This document shows positions 722 through 62,000 of a DNA stretch of 64,000 nucleotides, piece after piece. Position 1 is the first letter of the stretch; the number at the start of each line of letters is the position of its first letter. The translations under genes and the position numbers were made by a program. The stretch is from Membranipora membranacea (taxonomy: Eukaryota; Bryozoa; Gymnolaemata; Cheilostomatida; Membraniporidae). The stretch covers positions 19,039,001-19,103,000 of the forward strand of contig OU612067.1 in assembly GCA_914767715.1 (NCBI GenBank), given 5' to 3'. The notes under the pieces were generated by a model, which did not search any database, was not told where the DNA came from, and saw only the letters and a program-made list of their open reading frames with translations.

Positions 722-1643
722 ATGGCGGAAGTCGGAGATGGAGGTACTGCCAAAGGACGCAGGACATCAGATAAACAAATGCTGACTAAAGATGGTTTCC
801 CTGTGACTTCTGAAAGTGAGGCATGTAAGTGGATAAAAGATACTTAAAGTGAGATCACTATAAGTGTAATAATTGTGGTTACTTTTATCTGCAACATTTT
901 GTAGATTTAAAGACTTACAAGATTAGCGATCAAAAGACAGTTTTCTGAGCTTCTGAGAAATTTAAGCCGCTCTTTAGAGTTGTCTTCCCGTCTGTCTTGA
1001 AACACCATTATTTTGCCTGATTCTCGCTCACATACAAAATCTTTATCACAACTGGGAAAACATGCAATTATGGGCAAATTATATACTTACCTTGACTTGT
1101 CTTAAGTGGGGGAAGGGTAGTGCTATGAGACTGTATTTTCTGGGATATTGACAGCTACAGACAATTTTTGCCTATTAATTAAACACATCCTTGATGTCAG
1201 TAGGGTCAGCATGTTCCAAACAGTATGCCAGTGTATTCATGATTATGAGAGTTGTCTGTATTTGAGATTCGTATGAATTGAAGCGATCGCTTGCGCTATT
1301 TAAAGCTGCTCCTGATTGCTGTTAATATAATAAAAGCTACCCTGTAGAGTTTTAAGGTTTTTTGAGACTTGAGGAAATAATTAATTTTAGCCTTTCACTT
1401 ATGTTTTTTTGCAGGTTATAGAATATGGTATAAACATAGTTTGGAGCCAGAGTGCACTGACTTGCTGATTAATGACCCTCATCTAACCCAGATATCACTG
1501 TCAGATCTGACAGCTGCTATTGATGGCCTCGATATCACTCACATGATGATCAGCGGTGATATCCCACCTACTCTTGGTCAGATAGCTCCTGATCTGAAAC
1601 AACTCAGACTAAGGCTAATACAACACCAAGATCAGCTACAGAG
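722..1643 (+). CDS. Gene A exons 1-2: N-terminal module
   Basis: Exon 1 (722-824, 34 codons plus 1 base, donor GTAAGT) is Lys/Arg- and Ser/Thr-rich and looks unstructured. Exon 2 (1415-1643) follows a good pyrimidine-rich acceptor and reads YRIWYKHSLEPE and onward to a donor GTGAGC. It contains an LRR-like stretch ending in LKQLRLR. The junction is phase 1 and the module leaves in phase 2, the phase used by every LRR exon. The same module occurs in gene B at 51179-51407, and a diverged second copy lies inside gene B at 60048-60270, so it is a repeated building block of this family. I do not recognise a named domain; an LRR N-terminal cap is the simplest reading. Confidence 0.75.
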
Positions 1644-4600
1644 GTGAGCCTACCTTTTGTGGGATATGGTATGGTGTGTCTGTATCTGATTTGTGTGAGT
1701 GCATTTAGTGAAGCGATAGTATGTCCAAGGAAAACTATTGTTGAGATTCTTAAATCTCCTATCATGTGAGTTGTCTTCCTATTATCAGCACTATAATGGT
1801 GTTGAGTGAAAAATTGAAATTTAATATCATGTGAAATTTATTTCAGTGCAAAACTTAGATCCCATTTTCTCGTAGGGTGTTTTGATGACCGATATCAATA
1901 ACCATGGCTATTCGTTATCACCAGCAGTAAGCCCATTAGTTATATGTGATAGTTATTTCCTGATCACCTCACATGTAATTTTTAATATATTACAGTGTCT
2001 GCTCACTGACAGCTCTAGAGAAGTTATCTGTATCAGGTAATAGTAGACTACAAATATTACCTGATGATATAGGTATGATGAAGTCACTAAAGGTGTTAGA
2101 TGTGTCAGGCTGTGATCTGACTCATTTACCTACAAGGTGAGTAATGTCCTTATGATCAGAACTATGAAAGCAATATGTTAGTGATGTTACATTATTTATG
2201 ATAGATAATTTGGATAAAATGCAGGAATCTATAATAAAACAAATTTTCATTTTATATTAGAAGAAAATATTGATGACAGAAATTCACACAATTGCTATTA
2301 TATCAATAATCCGTTACTGGTAGTTAGCTCCTTGTATTACTTCACATATAACATATTATGATGTATATTACAGTGTCTGTTCACTGCCTGCTCTAGAGAG
2401 GTTATCTGTATCAGGTAATAAAAAACTACAAACGTTACCTGATGATATAGGTCTGATGAAGTCATTGATGGAGTTATCTGCGCGGCGCTGTGATCTGACT
2501 CATTTACCTACAAGGTGAGTAGTTCTTATGATCAATTTTATGAAAGTGATATATTAGTGATGTTACATAATTTAAGATAGATAATTTGGATAGAATGCAG
2601 GAATCTATAATGAATCAAAGTTTCATATTATATTAGAAGAAAATATTGATGACAGAAATTCACACAATTGCTATTATATCAATAATCCGTTACTGGTAGT
2701 TAGCTCCTTGTATTACTTCACATATAACATATTATGATGTATATTACAGTGTCTGTTCACTGCCTGCTCTAGAGAAGTTATCTGTATCAGGTAATAAAAA
2801 ACTACAAACGTTACCTGATGATATAGGTCTGATGAAGTCATTGATGGAGTTATCTGCGCGGCGCTGTGATCTGACTCATTTACCTACAAGGTGAGTAGTT
2901 CTTATGATCAATTTTATGAAAGTGATATATTAGTGATGTTACATAATTTAAGATAGATAATTTGGATAGAATGCAGGAATCTATAATGAATCAAAGTTTC
3001 ATATTATATTAGTAGAAAATATTGATGACAGAAATTCACACTGTGGCTATTATATCTATAATCTGTTACTGGTAGTTATCTCTTTGTATTACTTCACATA
3101 TAACGTATTATGATGTATATTACAGTGTCTGTTCACTGACAGCTCTAGAGAATTTATCTGTATCAGGTAATGAAAAACTTCAAACGTTACCTGATGATAT
3201 AGGTATGATGAAGTCACTAAAGGTGTTATCTGTGTCAAACTGTGATCTGACTCATTTACCAACAAGGTGAGTAGTTCTTATGATCAGATTTATGAAAGTG
3301 ATATATTAGTGATGTTACATTATTTATGACAGATAAGCCCATTAGTTATATGTGATAGTTATTTCCTGATCACCTCACATGTAATTTTAATATATTACAG
3401 TGTCTGTTCACTGACAGCTCTAGAGGAGTTATCTGTATTCAGTAATAAGCGACTACAAACGTTACCTGATGATATAGGTATGATGAAGTCACTGAAGGTG
3501 TTATCTGTGTCAGGCTGTGATCTGACTCATTTACCTACAAGGTGAGTAATGTCCTTATGATCAGAACTATGAAAGCAATATGTTAGTGATGTTACATTAT
3601 TTATGATAGATAATTTGGATAAAATGCAGGAATCTATAATAAAACAAAGTTTCATTTTATATTAGAAGAAAATATTGATGACAGAAATTCACACTGTGGC
3701 TATTATATCAATAATCTGTTACTGGTAGTTATCTCCTTGTTACACTTCATATTTAATATTTATTATGTATATTACAGCATTTGTTCACTGACAGCTCTAG
3801 AAAAGTTACATGTATCAGGTAATAGTAGATTACAAACGTTACCTGACGATATAGGTATGATGAAGTCACTAAAGGTGTTAGATGTGCGGCGCTGTGATCT
3901 GACCCATTTACCTACAAGGTAAGTAATGTTCTTATGATCAGAACCATTGAAGCAATATATTAGTGATGTTACATAATTTATGATAGATAATTTGGATAAA
4001 ATGCAGGAATCTATAATAAAACAAAGTTTCATATTATATTAGAAGAAAACATTGATGACTGAAATTCACACTGTGGCTATTATATCTATAACCTGTTACT
4101 GGTAGTTATCTCCTTGTATTACTTAACATATAACGTATTATGATGTATATTACAGTGTCTGTTCACTGCCAGCTCTAGAGAACTTACATGTATTTGGTAA
4201 TAGTAGATTACAAACGTTACCTGATGATATAGGTATGATGAAGTCACTAAAGGTGTTAGATGTGTCAAACTGTGATCTGACTCATTTACCAACAAGGTGA
4301 GTAGTTCTTATGATCAGATTTATGAAAGTGATATATTAGTGATGTTACATTATTTATGACAGATAAGCCCATTAGTTATATGTGATAGTTATTTCCTGAT
4401 CACCTCACATGTAATTTTAATATATTACAGTGTCTGTTCACTACCAGCTCTAGAGAAGTTATATGTAACAGATAATAGTAGACTACAAACGTTACCTGAT
4501 GATATAGGTATGGTTAAGACACTGAAGGTGTTATATGTGTATTACTGTGATCTGACTCATTTACCTACAAGGTAAGTAATGCTCTTATGATCAGAACTAT

Positions 4601-7600
4601 CGAAGTAATATATTAGTGATGTTACATTATTTATGATAGATAATTTGGATAGAATGCAGGAATCTATAATAAAACAAAGTTCCATTTTATATTAGAAGAA
4701 ACTATTGATGACAGAAATTCACACTGTGGCTATTATATCTATAATCTGTTACTGGTAGTTATCTCCTTGTATTACTTAACATATAACATATTATGATGTA
4801 TATTACAGTGTCTGTTCCTTGACAGCTCTAGAGGAGTTATCTGTATTCACAAATAAGCGACTACAAACGTTACCTGATGGTATAGGTATGATGAAGTCGC
4901 TGAAGATGTTAAATGTGTCATGCTGTGATCTGACTCATTTACCTACAAGGTGAGTAATGTTCTTATGATCAGAACCATTGAAGCAATATATTAGTGATGT
5001 TACATAATTTATGATAGATAATTTGGATAGAATGCGGGAATCTATAATAAAACAAAGTTTCATTTTATATTAGAAGAGAATATTGATGACCGAAATTCAC
5101 ACTGTGGCTATTATATCTATAATCTGTTACTGGTAGTTATCTCCTTGTATTACTTAACATATAACATATTATGATGTATATTACAGTGTCTGTTCCTTGA
5201 CAGCTCTAGAGGAGTTATCTGTATTCACAAATAAGCGACTACAAACGTTACCTGATGGTATAGGTATGATGAAGTCGCTGAAGATGTTAAATGTGTCATG
5301 CTGTGATCTGACTCATTTACCTACAAGGTGAGTTATGTTCTTATGATCAGAACCATTGAAGCAATATATCACATGTAACATATTATGATATATATTATAG
5401 TATCTGTTCACTGACAGCTCTAGAGGAGTTATCTGTATCAAACTGTGATCTGATCTAAAGCAATATATTGTTGATGTTACATTACGGGAATCTTTAATAA
5501 ATCAAAGTTTCATATAGTATTAGAAGAAAATATTGATGACTGAAATTCACACTGTGGCTATAATATCTTTAATCTGTTACTGGTAGTTATCTCCTTGTAT
5601 TACTTTACATATAACATATTATGATGTATATTACAGTGTCTGTTCACTGCCAGCTCTAGAGGAGTTATCTGTATCAGGTAATAAAAAACTACAAACGTTA
5701 CCTGATGATATAGGTATGATGAAGTCACTAAAGGTGTTATCTGTGCAAATCTGTGATCTGAGTCATATACCAACAAGGTGAGTAGTTCTTATGATCAGAT
5801 TTATGAAAGTGATATATTAGTGATGTTACATTATTTATGATAGATAATTTGGATAGAATGATATAGGTATGATTAAGTCACTAGAGGTGTTAGATGTGTC
5901 TTACTGTGATCTGACTCATTTACCTACAAGGTGAGTAATGTTCTTATGATCAGATATATGAAGTAATATATAGGCAGGAAATTCACCCTCTCAGGATAGC
6001 CAGCATGGGTGTAGCTTACTTTATTCTGATTGCCAATATTGGATGCGTAAAGTCTAATGGCACTCCAAGACGAAAAGTCAATTTAAATCAAGACTACCAC
6101 CAAGGCATAAAAAAATTAATTTCATTTACTACGATTTGATTTTGTACTAATAAACTCAACACTTACAGATAAACAAAGATATAATTTGATGAATAAGTAA
6201 AAGTAATAAGTACATATTATTAGTCTGGTCCGCCCGCAAACATGAAGAGATAAGTTGTAAGAGCGATGATTTTAGGTTGTTAAAACAGGTTCAGTCTGAT
6301 CATTTAAATGATACATTAAAGAATTGTTATAACAGTTAGAACATAGTGAAGGAATTGAATATACTATATATATATTATAAATGTATGTGTAAATGGTAAC
6401 TGTTTGATTGTCATGTCCTGCATTGAGATATGAAATGGGAATAATGTGAGCAAATTTGAATATCGTGCATATCGACCAATATCGATCAATATTGGATTAA
6501 ATATACATATATATATATATATATCCCTCATCACCAGCTCAGTAACCACCATGCTTTTCAGCGCGGTAATTCACTCATAACGCCTGAGCTATTTTCCCCA
6601 CCACCTTTCTCATAATATCGCTCAATGTCGCATATTACATACTGTAAAATTTCAAAAGTGGAGCCTTGGTCACATTACGTAAAATTCCTGCTGTCAAATG
6701 AATTTATGGTTTTTGATATATTAGCTTTCATGGTTAGGTGCAGTAATGCTTACATTCAAAGTTATGTTCTTTTACTTGCAGCATTGGACAGCTGACCAAT
6801 CTCATCAAACTGGATGTCCGATACAATGACAAGCTAACCAGCATTCCTGAGAGTCTGTACAGTGTTAGTACATTACAAGAAGTCCTGTGTGGTGGCTGTC
6901 ATACACTAACCTCTCCACCTCTGGTTATCTGCAACCTCGGAGTTAAAGCTGTGAGAAAGTACTTATTTGATCTCCGTGTGGAACGAGGAAGTAACCAACT
7001 GCTTATTCCGGTCACAGTAATCGGAAAGAGTAAGGCAGGTAAAACTAGCCTTGTTCAAAGTGTCCAACAGAACAAAAGAGTGCTGACACAGCGTGAATCT
7101 TCTGAAGAAGGTCTGGTTGATGCTGCCACCAAAGTATTCAAAGTATGTGAAGCTGATGTAGATAAGACAACGAAACTGATATTTACTGACTTTGGGGGAC
7201 ACACAATGTACCACTTTTCTTATCAGCTAACCTTCAAGACTCAGTATGTGCCACTGCTGGTAATAGACATAGCTGAGTTTGACAGGTTAGCTGATAAGAA
7301 TGGAGAGGAGTCAGCTTGTGAAGAGCTATGTCTAACATGGCTAGCTCATCTGTATATCTCATCACCAGGTCTCAACCGACCAGTAGTAGTCCTCACTCAT
7401 CGTGACAAACTTAGTGATGAATGTTTCACCCGCCGAAAACAGCAACTCATTGACGTCACTGAAAGGTTACGACAGCACATCATTGAAGCTGAGAGAAGTG
7501 TATCCCCAACACTAAGCCCTGTTTTTACTATGACTACCTTTAGTGATACCTCGGAACCCTTCATAAGACACATTGACATTCTTGATTTATCAGACACATC

Positions 7601-10187
7601 TGATCTGTCTGACATTAGTGACTTGAAGGACGCCCTCCTCATTGCTGGCTCAGAGCTGATCACAGAGATCCCAGGAATATGGTATCTAATGCTTATCAGA
7701 ATCACTGAACGAGTTGACCAACCATTCATTCACCTGTCAGAAATAGATAAAGAGTTTCCTGATGACAAAGAGCATGTGACCCTTCAATATCTCCACGAAA
7801 CAGGATGTATCATGTGGTTTGGGAAAATAGACAAACTTTCAAACTACATATTCCATCATTCAGAGGTTTTGACAGGTCTCATAGAAATCCTATACAGTCA
7901 TACCCTAGATGATACCTGGAGCAAACGCCTGAACCTCTTTTCTCCTTCCACCTCTGATGGGAAGAATATAGATAAAAGGAAATACACTGCTATGATTGAC
8001 AACTTCAACGCGACAGGAGTAATAGAGGCTTCTTTGCTCCTAAATCTGCTGGAAAAGGAATCTACAATCCCAGCTGATATCTCAGTAGAAATCCTGAAGA
8101 CATTTCACCTCATTCATCTATGTGGACCAACATCTGATTTAAGTCATGAGAAATACATCTTACCATATTTTGCGAAGGAAGAGATAAAAGCGCCTGAGGT
8201 CTTTGATAGTCTGATCCCACTGAAGGTAGATCTATGGCTACGAGGTCTCCCTATTCCGGGCTACGTCTTCTCCCTCATTACAGCAGCCTACTTGGACATA
8301 AACTCAGACCCCTACAACTTCCCTGAGGTTGGTAAGAACGGTGTAACAGTGACCAACCACAGGAACAAAAGTGTCAAATATCTTCTACATGATGCTACAG
8401 AAAAGCGTCTCTCCCTGATTACTCTCGCACCCCTGAGGAGAATCGGTGATGCATGGTGTGATCATCTCGCCTCACTCCGACAGCTCATCTCAGAACTGCG
8501 TTCAGTTTGGAAAGCAGTTCGCTATCAGAATGTCTTCGTTTGCTCCCATTGCTTACTCTCAAATAAGCCAACTCCAACTACTGCTGTCAATCCTGATTGG
8601 TTTCAGCCAGAAAACCTGGATGGAGATCTAGATGTTTGCTATACGGGAAAGGAGACTCGTGTATGCAAAGCTACAGCTGCCATCACGGAAAGTGAAACCG
8701 TTCCAACACCACTGATTTCTCCGTGTGAGTAATATCTCAAAGACAGCCAAACAGCTGCTCCTCTTTCCGCTCTGCAAAAACTGTTGCTAGAAATACGAAC
8801 CTAATTGTCAATAAACAACCATAAGCCCATGATGTGATCAAATGTCACTTTCTCTCTGCAACCCCGCTTCATTCCATTGTGATTATCAGACAGTTGATTG
8901 TTAGGCATCATTTCAATGGAGGCTTTAAATTCTTTTGTTTTATCTGCAGGTTCTGACGTATCTGAAACTGGATATGATAGGCTAAAAGCTTACATCTCAG
9001 ACCTCCGTGTTCTGTCTAGTAAGTTGTTTTACACCAATCTTTCAAGTGTAATCCGGATAATTGTAAATAATTTGGTTTGTCATATGTTACGACGACTTTG
9101 TTCTCAGAACTGTCTGTGCTGATCTTCAATTACTTTCTGAATCGATGATAATACCCATCATTGATCGAGGTGCATAATATTCATCTTTATTTTCTCATAG
9201 ATGAGTCAAAGATTCTGAAGGAGCTCATAGAGAAACATCCACTCGACACAAAGGACATCAAGCTGCTGTTTGATCACAGTGATCAGTATATAATACCACA
9301 TCAAGAAACTCATGTGAAGAGATGTGGATTAGTTCTGTTCAACTCTGACAACAGAGAGGGGGCCGCAGAAGAAGCTAATGCTATGAGTGAGAGCCTCACC
9401 AAATCTGGAATTCAGACTAAGACAGTGGAATGGAACTGGGACTATGATCTGTTTGCTGAAATCCATGATGAGCTGACTGGGCGGATTTCTGATGGACTAT
9501 CACTGCTCATCGTCTCAATCATGTCACATGGTACAGCTGGAATTCTGACCGGAATCAACGACTCCAAAATAGCTATTTCTGATGTGCTGAAGACGTTAAG
9601 TGTCAAGCTACCTAAACATATCCCTCTGGTAAGTTGTATCTCCACTGAATTTCCTAGAATAGTTTTCGGAGGCTGCATTTTTCTATAGATATTTGATCAT
9701 AATATTGTGTGTTTTGCAGTTATTACGGCAAACCTTATGAAATTGATAATTAAGGAGTAAATCCTTCAATCTTTTGCAGATTCTCATAGTGCAGGCTTGT
9801 CAAGCCTATTCCGATTCGGGATCTCCGAGTCATATAGACGCTGGCCGCGCAGAACCACCTAAGTCTTATGTAGTTCTGGAGAGGCCTCATACTCTGTTAC
9901 TGATGTCATCAGTTGTTGGAGGGGTGGCTGTTAGAGGAGCGTTCACAGGGGCCATGGCTAGACAGTTCGCTAAGGCTAATGGGAAGATAACTATAAACGA
10001 TATGGTGACTAATGCAATCATCGACATGAAGAAGAATGAACCAGATGAGTACAATCAGTCCCCAGAAAGAAGAGACACTCTACAGAAGAGTCTGATCCTC
10101 CCACCAGGTATAGATACACCAGATTCACAGCAACACAGTGAGGGAACATCTAAGGAAAGCCTCCTGAAGAAACTATTAGACAAATGA
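722..10187 (+). CDS. Gene A: LRR-Roc-COR GTPase fused to a C-terminal caspase domain (complete, spliced)
   Basis: Exons: 722-824, 1415-1643, eleven LRR exons (1996-2136, 2374-2514, 2750-2890, 3126-3266, 3401-3541, 3778-3918, 4156-4296, 4431-4571, 4809-4949, 5187-5327, 5637-5777), 6782-8724, 8950-9018, 9201-9628, 9780-10187. The sum is 4731 nt, divisible by three, with no internal stop: about 1576 residues. Order: N-terminal module (1-110), 22 LRRs (111-627), cap (628-700), Roc (about 700-890), COR (to about 1275), linker, caspase fold (about 1340-1545). Roc-COR proteins are GTP-regulated dimers, and caspases are cysteine proteases specific for Asp. The start is the ATG that opens MAEVGDGG; the same exon is conserved in gene B. 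No signal peptide or membrane segment is visible, so a cytoplasmic protein is expected. A role as a sensor linked to cell death is inference. The weakest part of the model is the 69-base exon. Confidence 0.85.
5401..5458 (+). pseudogene. Broken LRR exon remnant (internal deletion)
   Basis: A diverged acceptor (TTATAG) is followed by the usual exon start, encoding SICSLTALEELSVS. It then jumps straight to the end motif, reading NCDLI, and meets TAA. The middle of the exon, from the first LRR asparagine to the second LRR strand, is missing, and there is no normal donor. It is probably skipped in the mature message, and the gene A frame stays open without it. Confidence 0.7.
5861..5930 (+). pseudogene. 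5'-truncated LRR exon remnant
   Basis: Intron sequence runs directly into the second half of an LRR exon, reading IGMIKSLEVLDVSYCDLTHL, followed by an intact donor GTGAGT at 5931. The acceptor and the first LRR are gone. Without an acceptor it cannot be spliced as a normal module. It marks a deletion or an illegitimate crossover within the array. Confidence 0.7.
6782..8724 (+). CDS. Gene A exon 14: LRR cap, Roc GTPase and COR domain
   Basis: One 1943-base exon (about 648 residues). It opens with a last LRR and cap (SIGQLTNLIKLDVRYN; TSPPLVICNLG). Roc follows: G1 P-loop GKSKAGKTS (about residues 709-717), G3 DFGGH (about 764) and G4 THRDK (about 832), the THxD form of NKxD used by Roco proteins. 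COR begins near EIPGIWYLMLIRI, with a winged-helix-like stretch (YLHETGCIMWF, then VLTGLIEILYSH), and ends with a Cys pair VCSHCL and a conserved Trp. The family hydrolyses GTP and dimerises through COR. No kinase follows, unlike LRRK1/2. The acceptor TTGCAG at 6776-6781 and the donor GTGAGT at 8725 are both good. Gene B has the same exon, with about 95% or better similarity by eye. Confidence 0.92.
8950..9018 (+). CDS. Gene A small linker exon between COR and caspase
   Basis: A 69-base exon, phase 1-1, with acceptor CTGCAG and donor GTAAGT. It encodes about 23 residues including GYDRLKAYISDLRVLS. Being phase-symmetric, it could be skipped without changing the frame. No domain is recognised. 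It is supported only by splice signals and an open frame between two well-supported exons. Confidence 0.55.
9201..10187 (+). CDS. Gene A last two exons: caspase (peptidase C14) domain
   Basis: Exons 9201-9628 and 9780-10187 join in phase 0. The p20-like part opens with RCGLVLFNSDNREGA, holds the catalytic His in SIMSHGTAG (about residue 1408), and ends before the next intron. The second exon opens with ILIVQACQA, with catalytic Cys about residue 1448. The p10-like part has TLLLMSSVVGGVAVRG, which lines up with the caspase STVPGxxSWR strand, then a helix MARQFAKAN. By that alignment the three S1-pocket residues that hold Asp are present: Arg 1350, Gln 1446, Arg 1493. The usual QACxG is QACQA, losing the Gly. 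About 35 residues separate the two halves, including an HID that could be a processing site. The start is internal; no CARD or DED is seen. Confidence 0.85.
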
Positions 10188-14545: not shown

Positions 14546-17500
14546 CTACAAAATAATCATACCTTCTCATGTCATACCAACTTATCAAGCAAAAAGGAAG
14601 TTAGACCATAGGAATTCGGAATTTGATATAGCAATGTTGTTCAAAACTTGCTCAATCATTTTCCAGGTCTGAAATGATACATGATACAGATGACCTTTGA
14701 TCTCTACTACAGTATGGATAATTAGAGGATAACTGGCAGCTTTTTCGAGGCTATAAAGAGCATTTAGTCAGGAACCAGCCCCCACTTTCACTTCTACCAA
14801 ATGACTGGGGTTTAATTGTGCTTAATGTAAGGAGTTTTTGGACCTGATCACAATGGTGGCACAATATGCGGCTGTTATTGACCTTACATGGCCCAATGCT
14901 GCGAAAATAATATTTGTGTTTGACTTCTCCTACTGTAATAAAAGCTATTCAATAAGAAGGTCATGTCTCCTCTAAATATACCCCCCCCCCACCCCCACCC
15001 ACCGCAATTTGTCAGACTGATCGGCGGTGTTTTTGGAGAGCCTTATATTAATAATAAACACCTACCGACAGAAAATCTAGTCTCTTCCTGGTCTGCTGCT
15101 AGTGTTTTCATCGGTGATCCAAAGGAATCTAAAATCATAAAAATATATATGTTCTGCCATGAGAGGTACAAATAACAATGGTTGATCACAATTGACACGG
15201 TTTAATTAACAGGATACACCCTCCCTTGGAAAAGGTTTTCATTGAATAAGACAAGCTGATTAAGATGTTTATTCACTGTTATATCTGTGTGGTGTTACAA
15301 TGTATACTTTTTGTGCCGCGTGTAATCACTGAATTGGATTCTGCTCGAACGAATCAGCATTATCTCATAGACTAGAACATTGTAAGGCTGTTGTTGACAG
15401 TTTGTCCCTAGCAGTCAACTATGACCCCCAAATGAAGATTTTTCATCTAATTTTGGGTCAGCTGCGCCAAAAAATATTGCAGTGTTTTCAAAATTGCAAA
15501 CAGAAAAAAAAGGGTTAAGGTCAATGCTCCAATGGACCTGTGACTTTACCAAGTCCTTGAGTCTGTCAGAAGAACATATACTGTCCCAAGTGAGGGATCA
15601 GCAGGTGTAGTATTCATTACATAGACGCAGAGTGTTTGATCTTACAAGCAGTGCGTATGTACACTCACAGAACGAATGCACGAACACACAGAAAATGCAT
15701 ACACACAAAACTTACACACACACACAGGACGAACACACACATCCAGAATGTATGTACACACACACACAGAATGTACGTACATACGGACGGAACATACACA
15801 CACAGAACATACACACACACAGAATATACATATACACAGAACGCATGTACAAACAGAACATACACATACAAAACATACAAACACACCGAACATACATACA
15901 AAACGTACTTACACATATGACTTACACATACACACACACCGAATGTACACACAGAGAGCGTACCCACACACAGAACGTACACACCCAGAACGTACACACC
16001 CAGAATGTACATACACATACACAGAACATACACACACAGAACGTACACACACACAACGTACACACACACAGAACGTACACACACACAGAGCGTACTCACA
16101 CAGAAGTTACATACACAGAATGTACTTACACACAGAGCATACACACACAGAGAGCGTACACACACACAGAACGTACACACACACAGAACATACATACACA
16201 GAACGTACTCAAACACAGAGCGTACTCACACAGAACGTAAATACACAGAATGTACTTACACACACTGAATGTACACACACAGGACATACACACACAGAAC
16301 ATACTCACACAGAACGTACACACACACAGAACGAACGTACACACACCCACTGACCTGCAGTAGATGAAGTATCTGATTGTCCAGCGCTGACAGTCTGAGG
16401 ACTTTTCTCTGATTGTACTAAACTCTGTACTCCTACACTCTGATCAGTTACTGAAAAAGTATGGTATGTGTGTGAACAGGACGACTAAACCACGAGGGAA
16501 TGAAGCTTAGCAAGGGTATGAAAAATCAATGAAAAAGTGAAAAATGAATCGAAACCATAGTTTGATTTCAGTGAATAATCTTTTGAGGACTAAAAAAAGA
16601 TGACCATATTTTACCTTAGATCAAGTTTGATCCATTTTGCCCGCATTGGAGTCGCCCCCCCCCTCTACTGACACGCCGAAGTGCAACTCCAATGCAGGCA
16701 AAATGGATCAAAATATTATTCACCTCACTTCATAAACCAACGAGTAAATAATTCAAGTCAAGTTTCAACTTACGACTACTGGCTTAGGTAAGTATCACTT
16801 AACTGGGGGAGTTTTACCTTGGGTTAGTTCTCCTGCTCGGCTGGGTGTGGAGCTCTGTTCTGATAGCTGTGACATACTGTGACCTTGACCTGGTTTCTCA
16901 CCTTGACCTTCACAATGACTGGACACATTATCATCACTGCTTATAGTCTGCAGTATGTCTTCTATGTTTTGAATAGTTTGAGAGTTTTCAGTTTCTGTTG
17001 ATGAAGAGATCTCAGCTCTTGGTGTTTTAGACTGGTTTGAACCTTAAACAGACAAGGATACTAACCATGGAGCAGATCAAATCATGAGTTTGATAGTTTT
17101 ATTTGGATGTGTAAAGGGCCAGAACGCAAACTTTATCATGTTGCGTAATCGACACTCCATTCGTGGAAAGCCACATAATCATGAAACTAGATGGTCAGTA
17201 TCAATCGTTAATAACCCTCAAAGCATTTTGGTGTAGATTGTCATTTTCACTGTCGACATTAGCATCAAGTTGTTTTGATCAAAAAATTTCCTGCAATTTT
17301 GATTTCTACTTGAGCTTGAATTTTACATTGATGTATGCTATAGAGTGATATTCATGTACAAAATAGACAACAGCAATACACTCATCAGGAGCAGAAAAAA
17401 TATAATTCATTCTACCCTCACCACTGCTCTGATCCGCTGCAGATTGCCTCTCATCAGATGATGGCGTCTCCCCAGCCTCTGCAGAAGGGGAGGTAAACTC

Positions 17501-50485: not shown

Positions 50486-53400
50486 ATGGCGGAAGTCGGA
50501 GATGGAGGTACTGCCAAAGGACGCAGGACATCAGATAAACAAATGCTGACTAAAGATGGTTTCCCTGTGACTTCTGAAAGTGAGGCATGTAAGTGGATAA
50601 AAGATACTTAAAGTGAGATCACTATAAGTGTTATAATTGTGGTTACTTTTATCTGCAACATTTTGTAGATTTAAAGACTTACAAGATTAGCGATCAAAAG
50701 ACAGTTTTCTGAGCTTCTGAGAAATTTAAGCCGCTCTTTAGAGTTGTCTTCCCGTCTGTCTTGAAACACCATTATTTTGCCTGATTCTCGCTGACATACA
50801 AAATCTTTATCACAACTGGGAAAACATGCAATTATGGGCAAATTATATACTTACCTTGACTTGTCTTAAGTGGGGGAAGGGTAGTGCTATGAGACTGTAT
50901 TTTCTGGGATATTGACAGCTACAGACAATTTTTGCCTATTAATTAAACACATCCTTGATGTCAGTAGGGTCAGCATGTTCCAAACAGTATGCCAGTGTAT
51001 TCATGATTATGAGAGTTGTCTGTATTTGAGATTCGTATGAATTGAAGCGATCGGTTGTGCTATTTAAAGCTGCTCCTGATTGCTGTTAATATAATAAAAG
51101 CTACCCTGTAGAGTTTTAAGGTTTTTTAAGACTTGAGGAAATAATTAATTTTAGCCTTTCACTTATGTTTTTTTGCAGGTTATAGAATATGGTATAAACA
51201 TAGTTTGGAGCCAGAGTGCACTGACTTCCTGATTAATGACCCTCATCTAACCCAGATATCACTGTCAGATCTGACAGCTGCTATTGATGGCCTCGATATC
51301 ACTCACATGATCATCGGCGGTGATATCCCACCTACTCTTGGTCAGATAGCTCCTGATCTGAAACAACTCAGACTCAGACAAATACGACACCAAGATCAGC
51401 TACAGAGGTGAGCCTACCTTTTGTGGGATATGGTATGGTGTGTCTGTGTCTGTATCTGATTTGTGTGAGTGCATTTAGTGAAGTTATAGTATGTCCAAGG
51501 AAAACTATTGTTGAGATTCTCCTATCATGTGAGTTTTCTTCCTATTATCAGCACTATAATGGTGTTGAGTGAAAAATTGAAATTTAATATCATGTGAAAT
51601 TTATTTCAGTGTAAAACTTAAATCCCATTTTCGCGTAGGGTATTTTGATGACCGATATCAATAACCATGGCTATTCGTTATCACCAGTAGTAAGCCCATT
51701 AGTTATATGTGATAGTTATTTCCTGATCACCTCACATGTAATTTTAATATATTACAGTGTCTGTTCACTGACAGCTCTAGAGAAGTTACATGTATCAGGT
51801 AATAGTAGATTACAAACGTTACCTGATGATATAGGTATGATGAAGTCACTAAAGGTATTTTCTGTGTCAAACTGTGATCTGACTCATTTACCTTCAAGGT
51901 GAGTAATGTTCTTATGGTCAGATTTATGAAAGCGATATATTAGTGATGTTACATTATTTATGATAGATAATTTGGATAGAATGCGGGAATCTATAATGAA
52001 TCAAAGTTTCATTTTATATTAGAAGAAAATATTGATGACAGAAATTCACACTATTGCTATTATTTCAATAATCTGTGACTGGTAGCTTTCTCCTTGTATT
52101 ACTTCACATATAACATATTATGATGTATATTACAGTGTCTGTTCACTGCCAGCTCTAGAGAAGTTACATGTATCAGGTAATAGTAGATTACAAACGCTAC
52201 CTGATGATATAGGTATGATTAAGTCACTGAAGGTGTTAGATGTGTCAGCCTGTGATCTGACTCATTTACCTACAAGGTTAGTAATGTTCTTATGATCAGA
52301 TTTATGAAAGCGATATATTAGTGATGTTACATTATTTATGATAGATAATTTGGATAGAATGCGGGAATCTATAATGAATCAAAGTTTCATTCTATATTAG
52401 AAGAAAATATTGATGACAGAAATTCACACTATTGCTATTATTTCAATAATCTGTGACTGGTAGCTTTCTCCTTGTATTACTTCACATATAACATATTATT
52501 ATGTATATTACAGTGTCTGTTCACTGCCAGCTCTAGAGAACTTACATGTATCAGGTAATAGTAGACTTCAAACGGTACCTGATGATATAGGTATGGTTAA
52601 GACACTGAAGGTGTTATATGTGTCAGGCTGTGATCTGACTCATTTACCAACAAGGTGAGTAATGCCCTTATGATCAGTACCATTGAAGCAATATAATAGG
52701 GATGTTACATTATTTATGATAGATCATTTGGATAGAATGCGGGAATCTATAATGAATCAAAGTTTCATATAATATTAGAAGAAAATATTGATGACTGAAA
52801 TTCACACTGTGGCTATTATATCTATAACCTGTTACTGGTAGTTATCTCCTTGTATTACTTCACATATAACATATTATGATGTATATTACAGTGTCTGTTC
52901 ACTGCCAGCTCTAGAGGAGTTATATGTAACAGATAATAGTAGACTTCAAACGTTACCTGATGATATAGGTATGATTAAGTCACTAAAGGTGTTAGATGTG
53001 TCAGCCTGTGATCTGACTCATTTACCTACAAGGTTAGTAATGTTCTTATGATCAGATTTATGAAAGCGATATATTAGTGATGTTACATTATTTATGATAG
53101 ATAATTTGGATAGAATGCGGGAATCTATAATGAATCAAAGTTTCATTTTATATTAGAAGAAAATATTGATGACAGAAATTCACACTATTGCTATTATATC
53201 TATAATCTGTTACTGGTAGTTATCTCCTTGTTACACTTCACATATAACATATTATGATATATATTACAGTGTCTGTTCACTGCCAGCTCTAGAGAAGTTA
53301 GCTGTATTCGGTAATAAGCGACTACAAACGTTACCTGATGATATAGGTATGGTTAAGTCACTGAAGGTGTTAGATGTGTCAGGCTGTGATCTGACTCATT

Positions 53401-56400
53401 TACCAACAAGGTGAGTAATGCCCTTATGATCAGTACCATTGAAGCAATATAATAGGGATGTTACATTATTTATGATAGATAATTTGGATAAAATGCAGGA
53501 ATCTATAATAAAACAAAGTTTCATTTTATATTAGAAGAAAATATTGATGACAGAAATTCACACTCTGGCTATTATATCTATAATCTGTTACTGGTAGTTA
53601 TCTCCTTGTTACACTTCACATATAACATATTATGATGTATATTACAGTGTCTGTTCACTGCCAGCTCTAGAGGAGTTATCTGTATTTGGTAATAGTAGAC
53701 TTCAAACGTTACCTGATGATATAGGTATGATGAAGTCACTAAAGGTGTTATATGTGCGGCGCTGTGATCTGACTCATTTACCTTCAAGGTGAGTAATGCT
53801 CTTATGATCAGAACTATCGAAGTAATATATTAGTGATTTTACATTATTTATGATAGATAATTTGGATAGAATGCGGGAATCTATAATGAATGAAAGTTTC
53901 ATTTTATATTAGAAGAAAATATTGATGACTGAAATTCACACTGTGGCTATTATTTCAATAATCTGTTACTGGTAGTTATCTCCTTGTTACACTTCACATT
54001 TTATATTTATTATGTATATTACAGTGTCTGTTCACTGCCAGCTCTAGAGGAGTTATATGTATCAGGTAATAGGAGACTACAAATGTTACCTGATGATATA
54101 GGTATGATGAAGTTACTGAAGGTGTTAGATGTGTCAAACTGTGATCTGACTCATTTACCAACAAGGTGAGTAATGCTCTTATGATCAGAACTATCGAAGT
54201 AATATATTAGTGATGTTACATAATTTATGATAGATAATTTGGATAAAATGCAGGAATCTATAATAAAACAAAGTTTCATATTATATTAGAAGAAAATATT
54301 GATGACAGAAATTCACACTCTGGCTATTATTTCAATAATCTGTGACTGGTAGCTTTCTCCTTGTTACACTTCACATATAACATATTATGATGTATATTAC
54401 AGTGTCTGTTCACTGACAGCTTTAGAGAAGTTATCTGTATCAGTTAATAGTAGACTTCAAACGTTACCTGATGATATAGGTATGATGAAGTCACTAAAGG
54501 TGTTAGCTGTGTCATACTGTGATCTGACTCATTTACCTTCAAGGTGAGTAATGTTCTTATGATCAGAACTATCGAAGTAATATATTAGTGATGTTACATA
54601 ATTTATGACAGATAATTTGGATAAAAAGCAGGAATCTATAATAAAACAAAGTTTCATTTTATATTAGAAGAAAATATTGATGACAGAAATTCACACTCTG
54701 GCTAGTATATCTATAATCTGTTACTGGTAGTTATCTCCTTGTATTACTTCACATATAACATATTATGATGTATATTACAGTGTCTGTTCACTGCCAGCTC
54801 TAGAGAAGTTATCTGTAATAGGTAATAGTAGATTACAAACGTTACCTGATGATATAGGTATGATGAAGTCACTGAAGGTGTTATCTGCGCGGCGCTGTGA
54901 TCTGACTCATTTACCTACAAGGTGAGTAATGCTCTTATGATCAGAACTATCGAAGTAATATATTAGTGATGTTACATTATTTATGATAGATAATTTGGAT
55001 AGAATGCGGGAATCTATAATGAATCAAAGTTTCATTTTATATTAGAAGAAAATATTGATGACAGAAATTCACACTGTGGCTATTATATCTATAATCTGTT
55101 ACTGGTAGATATCTCCTTGTATTACTTCACATATAACGTATTATGATGTATATTACAGTGTCTGTTCACTGCCAGCTCTAGAGAAGTTATCTGTATCAGG
55201 TAATAGGAGACTACAAACGTTACCTGATGATATAGGTATGATGAAGTCACTAAAGGAGTTATCTGCGCGGCGCTGTGGTCTGACTCATTTACCAACAAGG
55301 TGAGTAATGCTCTTATGATCAGATTTATGAAAGTGATATATTAGTGATGTTACATTATTTATGATAGATAATTTGGATAAAATGCAGGAATCTAGAATAA
55401 AACAAAGTTTCATTTTATATTAGAAGAAAATATTGATGTCAGAAATTCACACTCTGGCTATTATATCAATAATCTGTGACTGGTAGTTATCTCCTTGTTA
55501 CACTTCACATATAACAATTATTATGATGTATATTACAGTGTCTGTTCACTGCCAGCTCTAGAGAAGTTACACATCAACAGTAACAAGAAGCTACAAACGT
55601 TACCTGATGATATAGGTATGATGACAGCACTGAAGGTGTTAGATGTGTCTTACTGTGATCTGACTCATTTACCTTCAAGGTGAGTAATGCTCTTATGATC
55701 AGAACTATCGAAGTAATATATTAGTGATGTTACATTATTTATGATAGATAATTTGGATAGAATGCGGGAATCTATAATGAATCAAAGGTTCATTTTATAT
55801 TAGAAGAAAATATTGATGACAGAAATTCACACTATTGCTATTATTTCAATAATCTGTGACTGGTAGCTATCTCCTTGTATTACTTCACATATAACATATT
55901 ATGATGTATATTACAGTGTCTGTTCACTGCCAGCTCTAGAGGAGTTATATGTATCAGGTAATAGTAGACTTCAAACGTTACCTGATGATATAGGTATGAT
56001 TAAGTCACTGAAGGTGTTATATATGTTAGACTGTGATCTGACTCATTTACCTACAAGGTTAGTAATGTTCTTATGATCAGATTTATGAAAGCGATATATT
56101 AGTGATGTTACATTATTTATGATAGATAATTTGGATAAAATGCAGGAATCTATAATGAATCAAAGTTTCATTTTATATTAGAAGAAAATATTGATGACAG
56201 AAATTCACACTATTGCTATTATTTCAATAATCTGTGACTGGTAGCTTTCTCCTTGTGACACTTCAAAAATAAGCTATTATGATATATATTACAGTGTCTG
56301 TTCACTGCCAGCTCTAGAGAAGTTATCTGTATTCGGTAATAAGCGACTACAAACGTTACCTGATGATATAGGTATGATTAAGTCACTGAAGGTGTTATAT

Positions 56401-58975
56401 GTGTCAGGCTGTGATCTGACTCATTTACCAACAAGGTGAGTAATGCCCTTATGATCAGTACCATTGAAGCAATATAATAGGGATGTTACATTATTTATGA
56501 TAGATAATTTGGATAAAATGCAGGAATCTATAATAAAACAAAGTTTCATTTTATATTAGAAGAAAATATTGATGACAGAAATTCACACTATTGCTATTAT
56601 ATCTATAATCTGTTACTGGTAGATATCTCCTTGTTACACTTCACATATAACATATTATGATATATATTACAGTGTCTGTTCACTGCCAGCTCTAGAGAAG
56701 TTATCTGTATTCAGTAATAAGCGACTACAAATGTTACCTGATGATATAGGTATGGTTAAGACACTGATGGGGTTATATGTGTCAGGCTGTGATCTGACTC
56801 ATTTACCAACAAGGTGAGTAATGCCCTTATGATCAGTACCATTGAAGCAATATAATAGGGATGTTACATAATTTATGATAGATAATTTGGATAAAATGCA
56901 GGAATCTATGATAAAACAAAGTTTCATCTTATATTAGAAGAAAATATTGATGATCGAAATTCAAACTGTGGCTATTATATCAATAATCTGTGACTGGTAG
57001 CTTTCTCCTTGTTACACTTCACATATAACATATTATGATGTATATTACAGTGTCTGTTCACTGACAGCTCTAGAGAAGTTATCTGTATCAGGTAATGAAA
57101 AACTTCAAACGTTACCTGATGATATAGGTATGATGAAGTCACTAAAGGAGTTATATATGTCAAACTGTGATCTGACTCATTTACCAACAAGGTGAGTAAT
57201 GTTCTTATGATCAGATTTATGAAAGTGGTATATTAGTGATGTTACATTATTTATGATAGATAATTTGGATAAAATGCAGGAATCTATAATAAAACAAAGT
57301 TTCATTTTATATTAGAAGAAAATATTGATGACAGAAATTCACACTGTGGCTATTATATCTATAATCTGCTCTGGTAGTTATCTCCTTGTATTACTTCATA
57401 TTTAATATTTATTATGTATATTACAGTGTCTGTTCACTGCCAGCTCTAGAGAAGTTACATGTATCAGATAATAGTAGATTACAAACGTTACCTGATGATA
57501 TAGGTATGATGAAGTCACTGAAGGTGTTAGATGTGTCATACTGTGATCTGACCCATTTACCAACAAGGTGAGTAATGTTCTTATAATCAGATTTATGAAA
57601 GCGATATATTAGGGATGTTACATAATTTATGATAGATAATTTGGATAAAAAGCAGGAATCTAGAATAAAACAAAGTTTCATTTTATATTAGAAGAAAATA
57701 TTGATGACAGAAATTCACACTCTGGCTATTATATCTATAATCTGTTACTGGTAGTTATCTCCTTGTATTACTTCACATATAACATATTATGATGTATATT
57801 ACAGTGTCTGTTCACTGCCAGCTCTAGAGGAGTTATCTGTATTCAGAAATAAGCGACTACAAACGTTACCTGATGATATAGGTATGGTTAAGACACTGAA
57901 GGTGTTATATGTGTATTACTGTGATCTGACTCATTTACCTACAAGGTGAGTAATGTTCTTATGATCAGAACTATCGAAGTAATATATTAGTGATGTTACA
58001 TAATTTATGACAGATAATTTGGATAAAAAGCAGGAATCTATAATAAAACAAAGTTTCATTTTATATTAGAAGAAAATATTGATGACAGAAATTCACACTG
58101 TGGCTATTATATCTATAATCTGTTACTGGTAGTTATCTCCTTGTATTACTTCACATATAACATATTTATTATGTATATTACAGTGTCTGTTCACTGCCAG
58201 CTCTAGAGAAGTTATATGTATCAGATAATAGTAGATTACAAACGTTACCTGATGATATAGGTATGATGAAGTCACTGAAGGTGTTAGATGTGTCATTATG
58301 TGATCTGACCCATTTACCAACAAGGTGAGTAATGTTCTTATGATCAGATTTATGAAAGCGATATATTAGGGATGTTACATAATTTATGATAGATAATTTG
58401 GATAGAATGCAGGAATCTATAATAAAACAAAGTTTCATTTTATATTAGAAGAAAATATTGATGACAGAAATTCACACTCTGGCTATTATATCAATAATCT
58501 GTTACTGGTAGTTATCTCCTTGTATTACTTCACATATAACATATTATGATGTATATTACAGTGTCTGTTCACTGCCAGCTCTAGAGAACTTACATGTATT
58601 TGGTAATAGTAGATTACAAACGTTACCTGATGATATAGGTATGATGAAGTCACTAAAGGTGTTAGATGTGTCAGGCTGTGATCTGACTCATTTACCTTCA
58701 AGGTGAGTAATGTTCTTATGATCAGATTTATGAAGTAATATATAGTCAGGAAATTCACCCTCTCAGGATAGCCAGCCTGGGTGTAGCTTACTTTATTCTG
58801 ATTGCCAATATTGCATGCGTAGTCTAATGGCACTCCAAGACCAAAAGTCAATTTAAATCAAGACTACCACCAAGGCATAAAAAAGAATAAGTTCATTTAC
58901 TATGATTTGATTTTGTACTAATAAACTCAACACTTACAGATAAACAACGATATAATTTGATGAATAAGTAAAAGT

Positions 58976-59020
<45 letters not shown>

Positions 59021-62000
59021 GTAGTGACCACAGTATACCATTCTTATAACAGTCAACCACTATAAATTCCCCACATTATAAGTGGTGTTACATAATTTAT
59101 GGTATTTATTAGACAGATTTTACATAATATTTGATGTGCGATTGGCAAAAATCAGTATTTACATAGCATCACAATTTTAAAAAACTGTCTCCAAGGCCCA
59201 ATTTGAGGATCTGTGCTGTACTTTTATACACCACAAACGGCAATTTGGATCGAATCACACTATACAAACATAATCACCATGCCTCAATTATCCATTCAGT
59301 TAAATAAATCACCAAATTTAATAAAAGTAGATGATTGCTTCCTGATATTCAGAGCTGACTGTTAGACATAAATAATTAATTTTTCCTGCAGTATCGGTCA
59401 GCTGATCAACATAGAGAGCTTGGATATCAGTTACAACAGGAGACTAACTACGATACCTGAGAGCTTAATCAGTATCAATGCACTACATCAACTCGAATGT
59501 GGAGGTTGTGATGGGCTAACATCTCCACCTCTGAGCGTCTGTAAACTCGGCCTTGAAGCTATGAGAGAACACTTTTTTCTGAAAGGTAAATTTATCAATC
59601 AAACTTTTGACGGGATTCATCAGCTCAAGCTTAAAATTTTGTTTGAAAAATTGCGACAAAAATCAACGAATCATCGCTATCAATGGGTTTAAAAACTTGA
59701 AAGATTAAACTTGTGATGAACGTAGCTTTCCAATAACACTATTTGACAACTGATATTTGATTGGAGAGATTATCTTTATTTAATATATTAATATGTTTAT
59801 TATCTAGCAGTGTGGCAACCTAGTAATAATTTGTTGAAAATCGGTGAATCACCTTTTGATATAAAAAATGACAAAATAAGATAGGCTTCTTTGGAGTCGT
59901 GATCTACTCATTCAATAAAAGGTGTATCCAACAATAATCTGCCACAAATGCGAGCAGGACTGACACTACATACACATCAAGTTTTTACAAGGACATCATA
60001 AGGTGTACTCTTGAGTTTTGGCATCTACTTGTGTTCCTCTCTTTTAGTCTGGTACAGGCATACATTGGAACCAAAGATTGACGCAATTCCATATATAGAT
60101 GAGGAACAACTGACTCAGATCTCATTGTCAGAGTTGACAGCTGTCACTAAAGGGCTTGACATAACACACATGTATATCAGTGGTTATATCCCACAAAATC
60201 TACACCAGATTGCCCCTAAACTGAAACAGCTCAGACTGAATGTGATACCGATAGAAGATCAACTAATGAGGTTGGTTTTACCATTATTATCATCACAATC
60301 AGTTTATAGAAAAAGCAGAGGCACATGTCAGTTTGGTAGTGTAGAGCATGACTTAGTCCTTGACTTGTAATTAGTCAATTGCTCATTATTCATTATTGGA
60401 GAGGTATACAAGGATGGAACAATCAACCTTGAAAGTTCTCCAAATGGGACTCGAACCCACAACTCCTGCCGCACTAATCGCCTGGCTGTGAAAAGCAAGC
60501 GCTAACCAATTGCGCATCTCACAATCATCAAAAAATAATGGCCCCAATTAGATAGCCTGCTATTCACTACTCAGATTTGTGCTGTCTCATCTAACAACAC
60601 ATACCAAACCACTGCTGCCACCCTATGAAACACAGCGTACTCGTTAGGGTTATTGGCCTCACATAGCTCATTGCTGGAATCCCTGAAAGTTAATTCATAA
60701 CCATGCCCTTACACATGGCAGTCATATCTCAAATAATTACTCACGTATTATTTGGTATGTATATCGCTATAGTAGCTCACTGACATATCTGGAGATGTTG
60801 GATGTGTCCTGGAACAGTAAAGTAGACACTTTACCTGACTGGATATGTCAGATAAGATCACTTAAGGAGTTATATGTTCGAGATAATGAACTCAGCAAAC
60901 TACCAGACTCGTGAGTGATGCAATCAGTTTATGTATGGAATATGATGAAGAAACAAGTTTTTCCTACAATACACTATATTTATGCCTTCACCACATTTAC
61001 ATGTGTGTGATAACATTTTAATTAGCAGGTAGATCCTAGGATAAGAAGCCATGATCACTTGTGTGCAGGCTGGTCAGCACCATAATGAAATAAAATGTGT
61101 ATAACTTGTTCTAGTGCTATCTAGACTAATCAATATTTCCACCGTATTACAGGATTAACTCACTAAAAAACCTGGAGAAATTGGATATATCAGGCAATAA
61201 CGTGGAGACATTACCTGAATGGTGAGCACTTTTACATGTTCATATATATATATATATTTGGAGCCGATTATATATATTCACTACTAAAGATTCACCATAT
61301 ATGATAAGTAGTGAATCTTTGAGGCCTCTAAACTTATAATTGAATGTTTGTGACTCTCAATGTTATGTAATAAAAGGTTTCTGGTTTTAATTTCCAATTC
61401 CGTCTGCATTAAGGGTAATATAAATCTGCGATTCCTTGTTGACCCAGAATTAGCTTAACCTTCATACTGATGATTCAGAATATTGCTTGACATTTCCTTA
61501 TCAAAATTTGATGCTCCACCAAATAGATCTAAATGACAACAAAGATTTCACCAAATTTCTGTTCCCATCGGTATATCAGCATCAGCTTGATGAAGAAGCT
61601 AGAGAAGCTAGTTGTATCTCGTAATCAGATTCAAACACTGCCTGAGGGGATAGCAGAGATGATATCACTAAAAGAGTTATCTGTATGGAGGTGTAAACTC
61701 AGAGAAATACCAGACTGGTGAGTGAATAAAGACTAGTATGAGAAGGTAGTGTGATACTAGTTTGTTCATATAGCCAGTGTTCACGTATGTTTACACTAAG
61801 TCACTATTATTTCACTTCAAACTCCATCTGTATGAGAAAATGGTAACTGTTTGATTGTATTGTCCTGCATAGAGATTTGAAATAGGAATATGTGAGCAAA
61901 TTCGAATATCGTGCATATCGACCAATATCGATCAATATGGGATTACATATACATATATATATATCAGTGGCGTATATTAGCAATCACGGCCCACGGATTG

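Follow-up and report, generated by a model that had tools for sequence, protein, structure and literature searches.

The DNA analyzed here, called the window throughout, is a stretch of 64,000 nucleotides from the bryozoan Membranipora membranacea (assembly GCA_914767715.1, contig OU612067.1, positions 19,039,001 to 19,103,000 of the forward strand). It is part of chromosome contig C3 in a genome of 339 Mb and 18 contigs. In the 14,741-base mitochondrial contig, COX1 translates well, as judged by eye, under the invertebrate code (TGA as Trp, AGA/AGG as Ser, ATA as Met). Its first 10 kb hold a gene, here gene A, running on the plus strand from 722 to 10187, for which a spliced gene model read from the DNA gives 17 exons and a protein of 1576 residues. 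Every intron of the model is of the GT-AG type, and the phases are consistent throughout. The predicted protein has, in this order, an N-terminal cap encoded by exons 1 and 2, about 24 leucine-rich repeats (LRRs), a Roc GTPase domain, a COR domain, and a caspase domain. A tandem copy, gene B, lies 49.8 to 55.9 kb downstream of gene A and runs past the end of the window. Coordinates of both genes are collected in the table.

A preliminary description of this DNA had placed a protein of the order LRR-Roc-COR-caspase at 6782 to 10187. These borders are good at the level of single bases, as the exon that carries Roc, COR, and the final LRRs begins with base 6782 and the stop codon ends with base 10187; all the motifs named there are present. 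The region does belong to the gene, but the gene starts far upstream, at 722, and includes 11 complete LRR exons between 1996 and 5777. The protein had also been described as lying in one open frame. That is correct after splicing but not in the DNA, where the unspliced Roc-COR frame is open through 8729 and meets a TAA at 8730 to 8732, and where three introns (8725 to 8949, 9019 to 9200, and 9629 to 9779) have to be removed to join Roc-COR with the caspase frame.

Table. Exons, motifs, and arrays of genes A and B in the window
Feature	Position	Strand	Properties
Gene A exon 1	722-824	+	In-frame ATG, GT donor, phase 1; 35 residues 100% identical at 50486 in gene B
Gene A exon 2, N-terminal cap	1415-1643	+	AG/GT borders, in phase; 92% identical counterpart at 51175-51405 (tblastn)
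Gene A array, 11 LRR exons	1996-5777	+	141 bp each, two LRRs each, phase 2-2; Pfam LRR families
Starts of gene A LRR exons	1996, 2374, 2750, 3126, 3401, 3778, 4156, 4431, 4809, 5187, 5637	+	
Shortened LRR exon without donor	5401-5456 (end approximate)	+	Excluded from gene A model
Shortened LRR exon	5867-5930	+	64 bp from nearest upstream AG, not a multiple of 3, frame-breaking; excluded from model
Gene A exon with last LRRs, Roc GTPase, COR	6782-8724	+	661-aa open frame
Roc G1 (P-loop), GKSKAGKTS	7023-7049	+	Core residues invariant in 8-member family alignment
Roc G3, DFGG	7188-7199	+	Invariant in 8-member family alignment
Roc G4, THRD	7395-7406	+	T, H, and D invariant, third residue R or C (8-member family alignment)
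Conserved Cys motif CxxC...C near COR end	8541-8666	+	Invariant in alignment A1 (5 sequences); aligned near Cys of other Roco proteins
Gene A linker exon between COR and caspase, 23 residues	8950-9018	+	AG/GT borders, in phase
Gene A caspase exon, p20-like	9201-9628	+	Within Peptidase_C14 match; SHG at 9524-9532; proposed S1 Arg at 9353-9355
Gene A caspase exon, p10-like part and stop	9780-10187	+	Within Peptidase_C14 match; QAC at 9792-9800
Linker Asp-Ala	9837-9842	+	In exon 9780-10187, between caspase parts
Proposed S1 Arg of p10-like part	9933-9935	+	In exon 9780-10187
Gene B exons 1 and 2	50486-51405	+	tblastn, 100% and 92%
Gene B array, 19 LRR exons	51758-58702	+	
Shortened Roc-start exon, second N-cap, two divergent LRR exons	59392-61712	+	Between gene B array and its Roc-COR
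Gene B Roc-COR exon	62647-64000	+	Exon borders conserved; caspase exons follow past the window, to window coordinate 66049

Judged by its predicted domains, a Roc GTPase with a COR domain directly after it, the gene A product belongs to the Roco family. The preliminary description had proposed profile searches for Roc, COR, and the caspase. In the spliced protein of gene A, Pfam gave strong matches to LRR families, a clear caspase match (below), and a Roc match of 27 bits, exactly at the 27-bit cut-off of that family; with the C-terminal piece of the protein, Roc scored 28 bits. COR was not recovered in this way, as no COR-A match was reported for gene A at an E value of ≤0.1. With the same threshold, a family alignment of five members (A1) gave Roc in 5/5, Peptidase_C14 in 5/5, and COR-A in 3/5 (best E value, 2.8e-5), and COR-B was not listed for any of the five. 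The COR domain of gene A is therefore assigned by profile-profile comparison. Against seven bacterial Roco proteins and one amphioxus protein, the family profile matched with 99.8% and an E value of 1.7e-28. Family positions 1 to 622 were aligned with residues 297 to 819 of template L055, in which COR-A occupies residues 537 to 675 and COR-B residues 688 to 831, so that the alignment spans the LRR end, Roc, COR-A, nearly all of COR-B, and the terminal Cys motif. That this Cys motif binds a metal is a guess. Among solved structures, the family profile matched Roc-COR proteins labelled "Rab family protein" (best E value, 4.3e-11, mainly via Roc), which we take to be the Chlorobium Roco protein. 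Between genes A and B, the ratio of nonsynonymous to synonymous rates (dN/dS) of the Roc-COR exon is 0.32. A structure prediction of this exon from a three-sequence alignment had a mean predicted local distance difference test (pLDDT) score of 34.9, which was too poor, and it was not used.

Pfam Peptidase_C14 (C14) matched residues 1348 to 1546 of the spliced protein with an E value of 5.6e-9 and 36.4 bits, against a cut-off of 21.4, and covered profile positions 17 to 232 of 233. The preliminary description had predicted a caspase profile match at residues 1340 to 1545, and it was right in this. The family profile matched caspase-8 structures with a best E value of 5e-7, and caspase-8 is the nearest among solved structures; with the gene A caspase used alone, the caspase-8 match reached only an E value of 0.08. 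In the caspase exons of seven copies, dN/dS was 0.10 to 0.48 over 21 pairs and ≤0.31 in 20 of them, with synonymous sites near saturation in many of the pairs. The caspase exons are under constraint across the subfamilies.

We searched the genome with the Roc-COR exon and scored 68 of 307 candidates, and all 68 match. Nearly all of these loci (65/68) are on C3 and C5, mostly in tandem clusters. They were compared with caspase matches, the inputs being 68 Roc-COR rows, 145 C14 rows, 150 of 152 rows of the gene A caspase type, and 73 Roc-family rows. At 67 of the 68 loci, a caspase match lies downstream on the same strand within 6 kb (gene A type at 48, C14 at 20, both at one), and the one locus without it is C3:26116821. 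Between Roc-COR and the nearest caspase match lie 462 to 3081 bases (median, 751). Within the same 6 kb, 0/68 loci have a caspase match on the upstream side, whichever the strand, or an opposite-strand match on the downstream side; when the distance was widened to 8 kb, one of the 68 gained an upstream match on the same strand. This uniform order is more than chance. The Roc-family search gave 148 matches, many of them resembling exons of ordinary small GTPases. The 73 rows used are those in open frames of at least 200 amino acids, and the other 75, short pieces, were left out. The 73 rows include 43 further Roc frames of at least 350 amino acids that do not overlap the first 68 loci; for 26 of these, the 6 kb that follow on the same strand contain a caspase match, against 0 for the upstream side. 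The family thus has at least 93 loci (67 plus 26); this is a lower bound from the best candidates scored, and the true number may be higher. The preliminary description had presented a single unusual gene. The architecture is real, but gene A is one member of this large family.

Uncollapsed haplotypes or false duplication in the assembly could also give a high copy number. Two introns of genes A and B (182 and 151 bp) are identical, and the LRR exons starting at 4809 and 5187 (4809 to 5327) encode the same protein, as such an artefact would predict. However, copies outside the cluster of gene A differ from it by 32 to 52% in Roc-COR protein and are spread over several chromosome-size contigs, and the arrays differ in size (11 exons in gene A, 19 in gene B). 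We regard an assembly origin of the family as highly improbable. The pair at 4809 and 5187 is, in itself, a very recent exon duplication.

At any one locus, distance and strand speak for a fusion of Roc-COR with the caspase but do not prove it. In 30 fetched stretches (L012 to L041, flank of 1.5 kb), a caspase of the gene A type was matched in 27, and counterparts of the 23-residue linker exon, whose size is near the detection limit, in 16. For the gene-A-type caspases, we compared 33 rows, which correspond to 32 loci, one being fetched twice. Only 1/33 rows has an ATG in the open stretch that precedes the first caspase exon. Within this exon, the position of the first Met varies: in 17 rows it comes after the first strand (GLVLFN, identified by eye), in 14 it shortly precedes that strand, and in 2 it is close to where the exon begins. 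Because an upstream ATG is this rare and the first Met has no shared place, a free-standing caspase would be without a common start. In relatives such as L042, a single long exon (1302 residues of it in the fetched stretch) holds both the LRRs and Roc-COR, and the same caspase exons come after it.

That LRR, Roc, COR, and caspase are joined in one spliced gene has good support from the phases, the same order across a large family, the constraint on the caspase exons, and the missing common start of a separate caspase. On the same grounds, the statement of the preliminary description that sensing, a GTPase, and a protease are coupled in one polypeptide holds in the predicted protein. The other possibility is two neighboring genes, with LRR-Roc-COR in one that ends near 8732 and the caspase in another downstream, for which it can be said that the unspliced Roc-COR frame is open just to 8729. 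Splice sites and phases suit a single gene, though, and gene B keeps all the exon borders that were compared; together with the start codon counts and with the order and strand constant at 67/68 loci, this makes two genes very unlikely.

Genes A and B have 11 and 19 complete LRR exons, and these 30 exons encode 29 distinct proteins. All 30 are symmetrical 141-bp phase 2 cassettes, so skipping any of them preserves the frame. At ten sites on the concave face of the LRRs (the x positions of LxxLxLxxN), the proportion of nonsynonymous differences (pN) is 0.359 and that of synonymous differences (pS) is 0.185; at the other 36 sites, pN is 0.046 and pS is 0.136. The introns adjoining the LRR exons differ by a median of 9.5% and a mean of 18%. 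At the level of coding sequence, this variation has the pattern of diversified binding faces, which gene conversion between LRR exons will also have shaped. Part of a third LRR array, of six exons, is found at L051.

The four exons at 59392 to 61712 in gene B also have a copy at L051, with protein identities of 97% for the N-cap, 100% for the two LRR exons, and 82% for the Roc-start exon. By our own reading, the first junction of this insert is phase compatible. Counterparts were not found in gene A, and because gene A is without these exons, it may be a compact deletion form.

Caspases are activated by induced proximity. We consider it probable that gene A encodes a spliced intracellular receptor-protease of a large, tandemly expanded family, which would work from a ligand through Roc-COR to its own caspase. 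Binding of a ligand by the LRR horseshoe would change the dimer or oligomer state of Roc-COR, which its nucleotide controls, so that the caspase domains come together and are activated by proximity. Cleaving their own chain at the conserved Asp-Ala of the linker, the caspases would release a p20/p10 enzyme that sets off cell death or inflammation. A single polypeptide of this family would then fill the role that an inflammasome or a plant-type NLR has elsewhere, and Roc-COR would stand where those have NACHT or NB-ARC. The available text of a Roco review states that the oligomer state of Roco proteins responds to nucleotides (PMC6337361). Architecture, repetition across the genome, caspase constraint, and concave-face variation are observations; an immune role is suggested by analogy.

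Among the gene-A-type copies, the catalytic His ([ST]HG) is kept in 33/33 rows and the catalytic Cys (QAC) in 20/20. The linker Asp-Ala between the caspase parts, at about the place where caspase-8 is cleaved, is kept in 17/20 rows, 11 of these from the cluster of gene A; the exceptions are L037 and L040, with a short linker, and L049, with a different linker. Two Arg residues are invariant in the 8-member alignment, at places that by eye are plausible for the S1 pocket. Gene A lacks the QACxG pentapeptide and has QACQA instead; QACQG is present in L042 and L049.

Several points weigh against this reading. In the His and Cys counts, 11 of the 33 rows and 11 of the 20 rows are near-identical copies from gene A's own cluster and not independent. 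Most subfamilies have A, D, P, V, or N behind QACQ, and G stands there just in L042 and L049. Between genes A and B, the caspase exons have 1 synonymous and 15 nonsynonymous differences, in which no constraint is visible, these differences being too few to decide. The LRR sites were set by consensus position, but after the exon alignment had been viewed. For 17 of the 43 further Roc frames, no caspase match was scored within 6 kb, whether absent or merely unscored. Some copies are broken, with a stop in the caspase exon of L032 (C5:5770110) and one in the Roc-COR frame of L049 (C3:14209753); these two look like pseudogenes, as birth-and-death evolution predicts.

Part of these points would suit a fused caspase that is no protease and acts as a scaffold or decoy, with signaling through Roc-COR. 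The variable residue after QACQ, the modest C14 scores (36 to 41 bits), and the mostly nonsynonymous changes between genes A and B would all agree with such a pseudo-caspase. However, His and Cys are kept in all rows, both proposed S1 Arg residues are invariant, the Asp-Ala is retained although the linker around it varies between subfamilies, and, in the alignment, caspase-8 structures likewise carry QACQ. The departure from QACxG lowers the claim to a canonical caspase and not that to the fold, since the residue lies outside the dyad. We find an inactive caspase unlikely and keep to the receptor-protease.

What such an active receptor-caspase would sense is a further question. Tandem arrays and diversified LRRs would be just as useful for telling self from non-self, and the family could act in allorecognition, or in sensing damage or development of its own cell, instead of against pathogens; no specific finding speaks against this, and we rate it as somewhat doubtful, with a modest share of the probability. 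One tentative extension, which we hold to be possible but short of probable, is that at least 93 loci form a receptor repertoire on a Roc-COR switch with a built-in caspase, that is, one-chain "inflammasomes," in which splicing of LRR cassettes or exon exchange could add frame-safe diversity.

Animal innate immunity is usually drawn as a sensor, an adaptor, and a protease in separate proteins, and Roco proteins have mainly been studied as kinases linked to Parkinson's disease. The same logic as proposed here, of a sensor, a switch, and a caspase activated by proximity, applies to inflammasome NLRs with caspase-8, whereas gene A would have the switch and the protease in one chain. At an E value of ≤0.001, none of the 12 Pfam families in gene A is NACHT, NB-ARC, CARD, PYD, DED, or Death. 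Gene A is not an NLR, although its mode of action may be similar.

Group 1 Roco proteins (LRR-Roc-COR, such as MFHAS1 and bacterial Roco) have the same core with G1, G3, and G4, and the profile match runs through this core to the terminal Cys motif; gene A differs from them by its caspase after COR. The available text of the Roco review has three classes, with LRR-Roc-COR only, with a kinase, and with a Death domain, and the word "caspase" does not occur in that text (PMC6337361). A protein search with 7989 candidates scored gave 2 matches, the better being LOC144883820 of the amphioxus Branchiostoma. It likewise has LRRs, Roc, COR-A, and COR-B, but it ends in a Death domain and would recruit an effector instead of being one; its N terminus resembles a membrane helix by eye. 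Bacterial LRR-Roc-COR proteins combine the same core with a C-terminal effector-type domain, which was TIR in 4/9 and EAD1 in 1/9 of those scanned; no caspase was found at an E value of ≤1e-4 in the 9 scanned of 21 loci. The bacterial ends (L054 to L072) suggest that the slot after COR accepts different effector modules. Animal Roc-COR proteins with immune or death signaling domains are on record as Roco-TIR proteins in Aplysia (PMC9334734) and as Trichoplax proteins with CARD, Death, or TIR, the last taken from the abbreviation list of a legend (PMC4104024); the available text of these two papers mentions no caspase fusion.

The preliminary description had proposed a shortcut from recognition to proteolysis. 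As an inference, this fits the intact catalytic dyad, and the idea has precedents in amphioxus, where, by the available text, LRRs-caspase and TNFR-caspase hybrids join a recognition domain directly to a caspase with a QACXG site (PMC2575513). A GTPase switch between sensor and protease is not mentioned there; "Roco" and "GTPase" have 0 occurrences in the main text (PMC2575513). Brown-algal ROCO genes are a close parallel for the arrays: the accessible part of that paper describes tandem phase 2 LRR exons, positive selection on the concave face, and alternative splicing, proposes immune receptors, and does not mention a caspase (PMC11378527). Genes A and B likewise have tandem LRR exons in one phase (11 and 19, phase 2), of 141 bp with two LRRs as opposed to 72 bp with one LRR in the algae (PMC11378527). 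The order LRR-Roc-COR-caspase was not found in the Roco and caspase literature compared, a limited search in partly available texts, and we do not claim that it is unpublished. Each ingredient is known already; family size, fused caspase, and LRR cassettes together are surprising.

The gene architecture is real and well supported, and this is a first look at a large family. If our reading is true, a Roc-COR switch can be an immune platform that replaces NACHT or NB-ARC, and exon cassettes of LRRs whose binding faces are diversified have arisen both in brown algae and in an animal. Direct control of Roc-COR over a protease would then become testable in one purified chain.

Several further observations were made on the family and the window. 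Loci L044 and L045 and clusters at C3:22.8-23.6 Mb and on C5 combine the same Roc-COR family with a second, more canonical-looking caspase type, which in L045 has THG and QACSG and a C14 E value of 2.3e-28 on two joined pieces; there were either two acquisitions, or one caspase diverged. In L048 (C3:21934504-21938503), the last caspase exon extends into a hydrophobic tail that by eye resembles a membrane anchor. The 17 Roc frames without a scored caspase, on C9, C7, C8, C5, and C10, may be Roco genes with another effector or an unscored caspase. C14 matches are also numerous at places other than the listed Roc loci, such as at C1:33-36 Mb and on C9 and C11, and the caspase complement of the genome looks very large. 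Rfam and tRNA scans of the 64-kb window gave no matches. A simple repeat at 15594 to 16443, with units of about 15 to 32 bp rich in ACACAC, yields long chance open frames. At 13881 to 34781, successive open stretches of about 85 to 170 amino acids on the minus strand may be exons of an unrelated gene between genes A and B.

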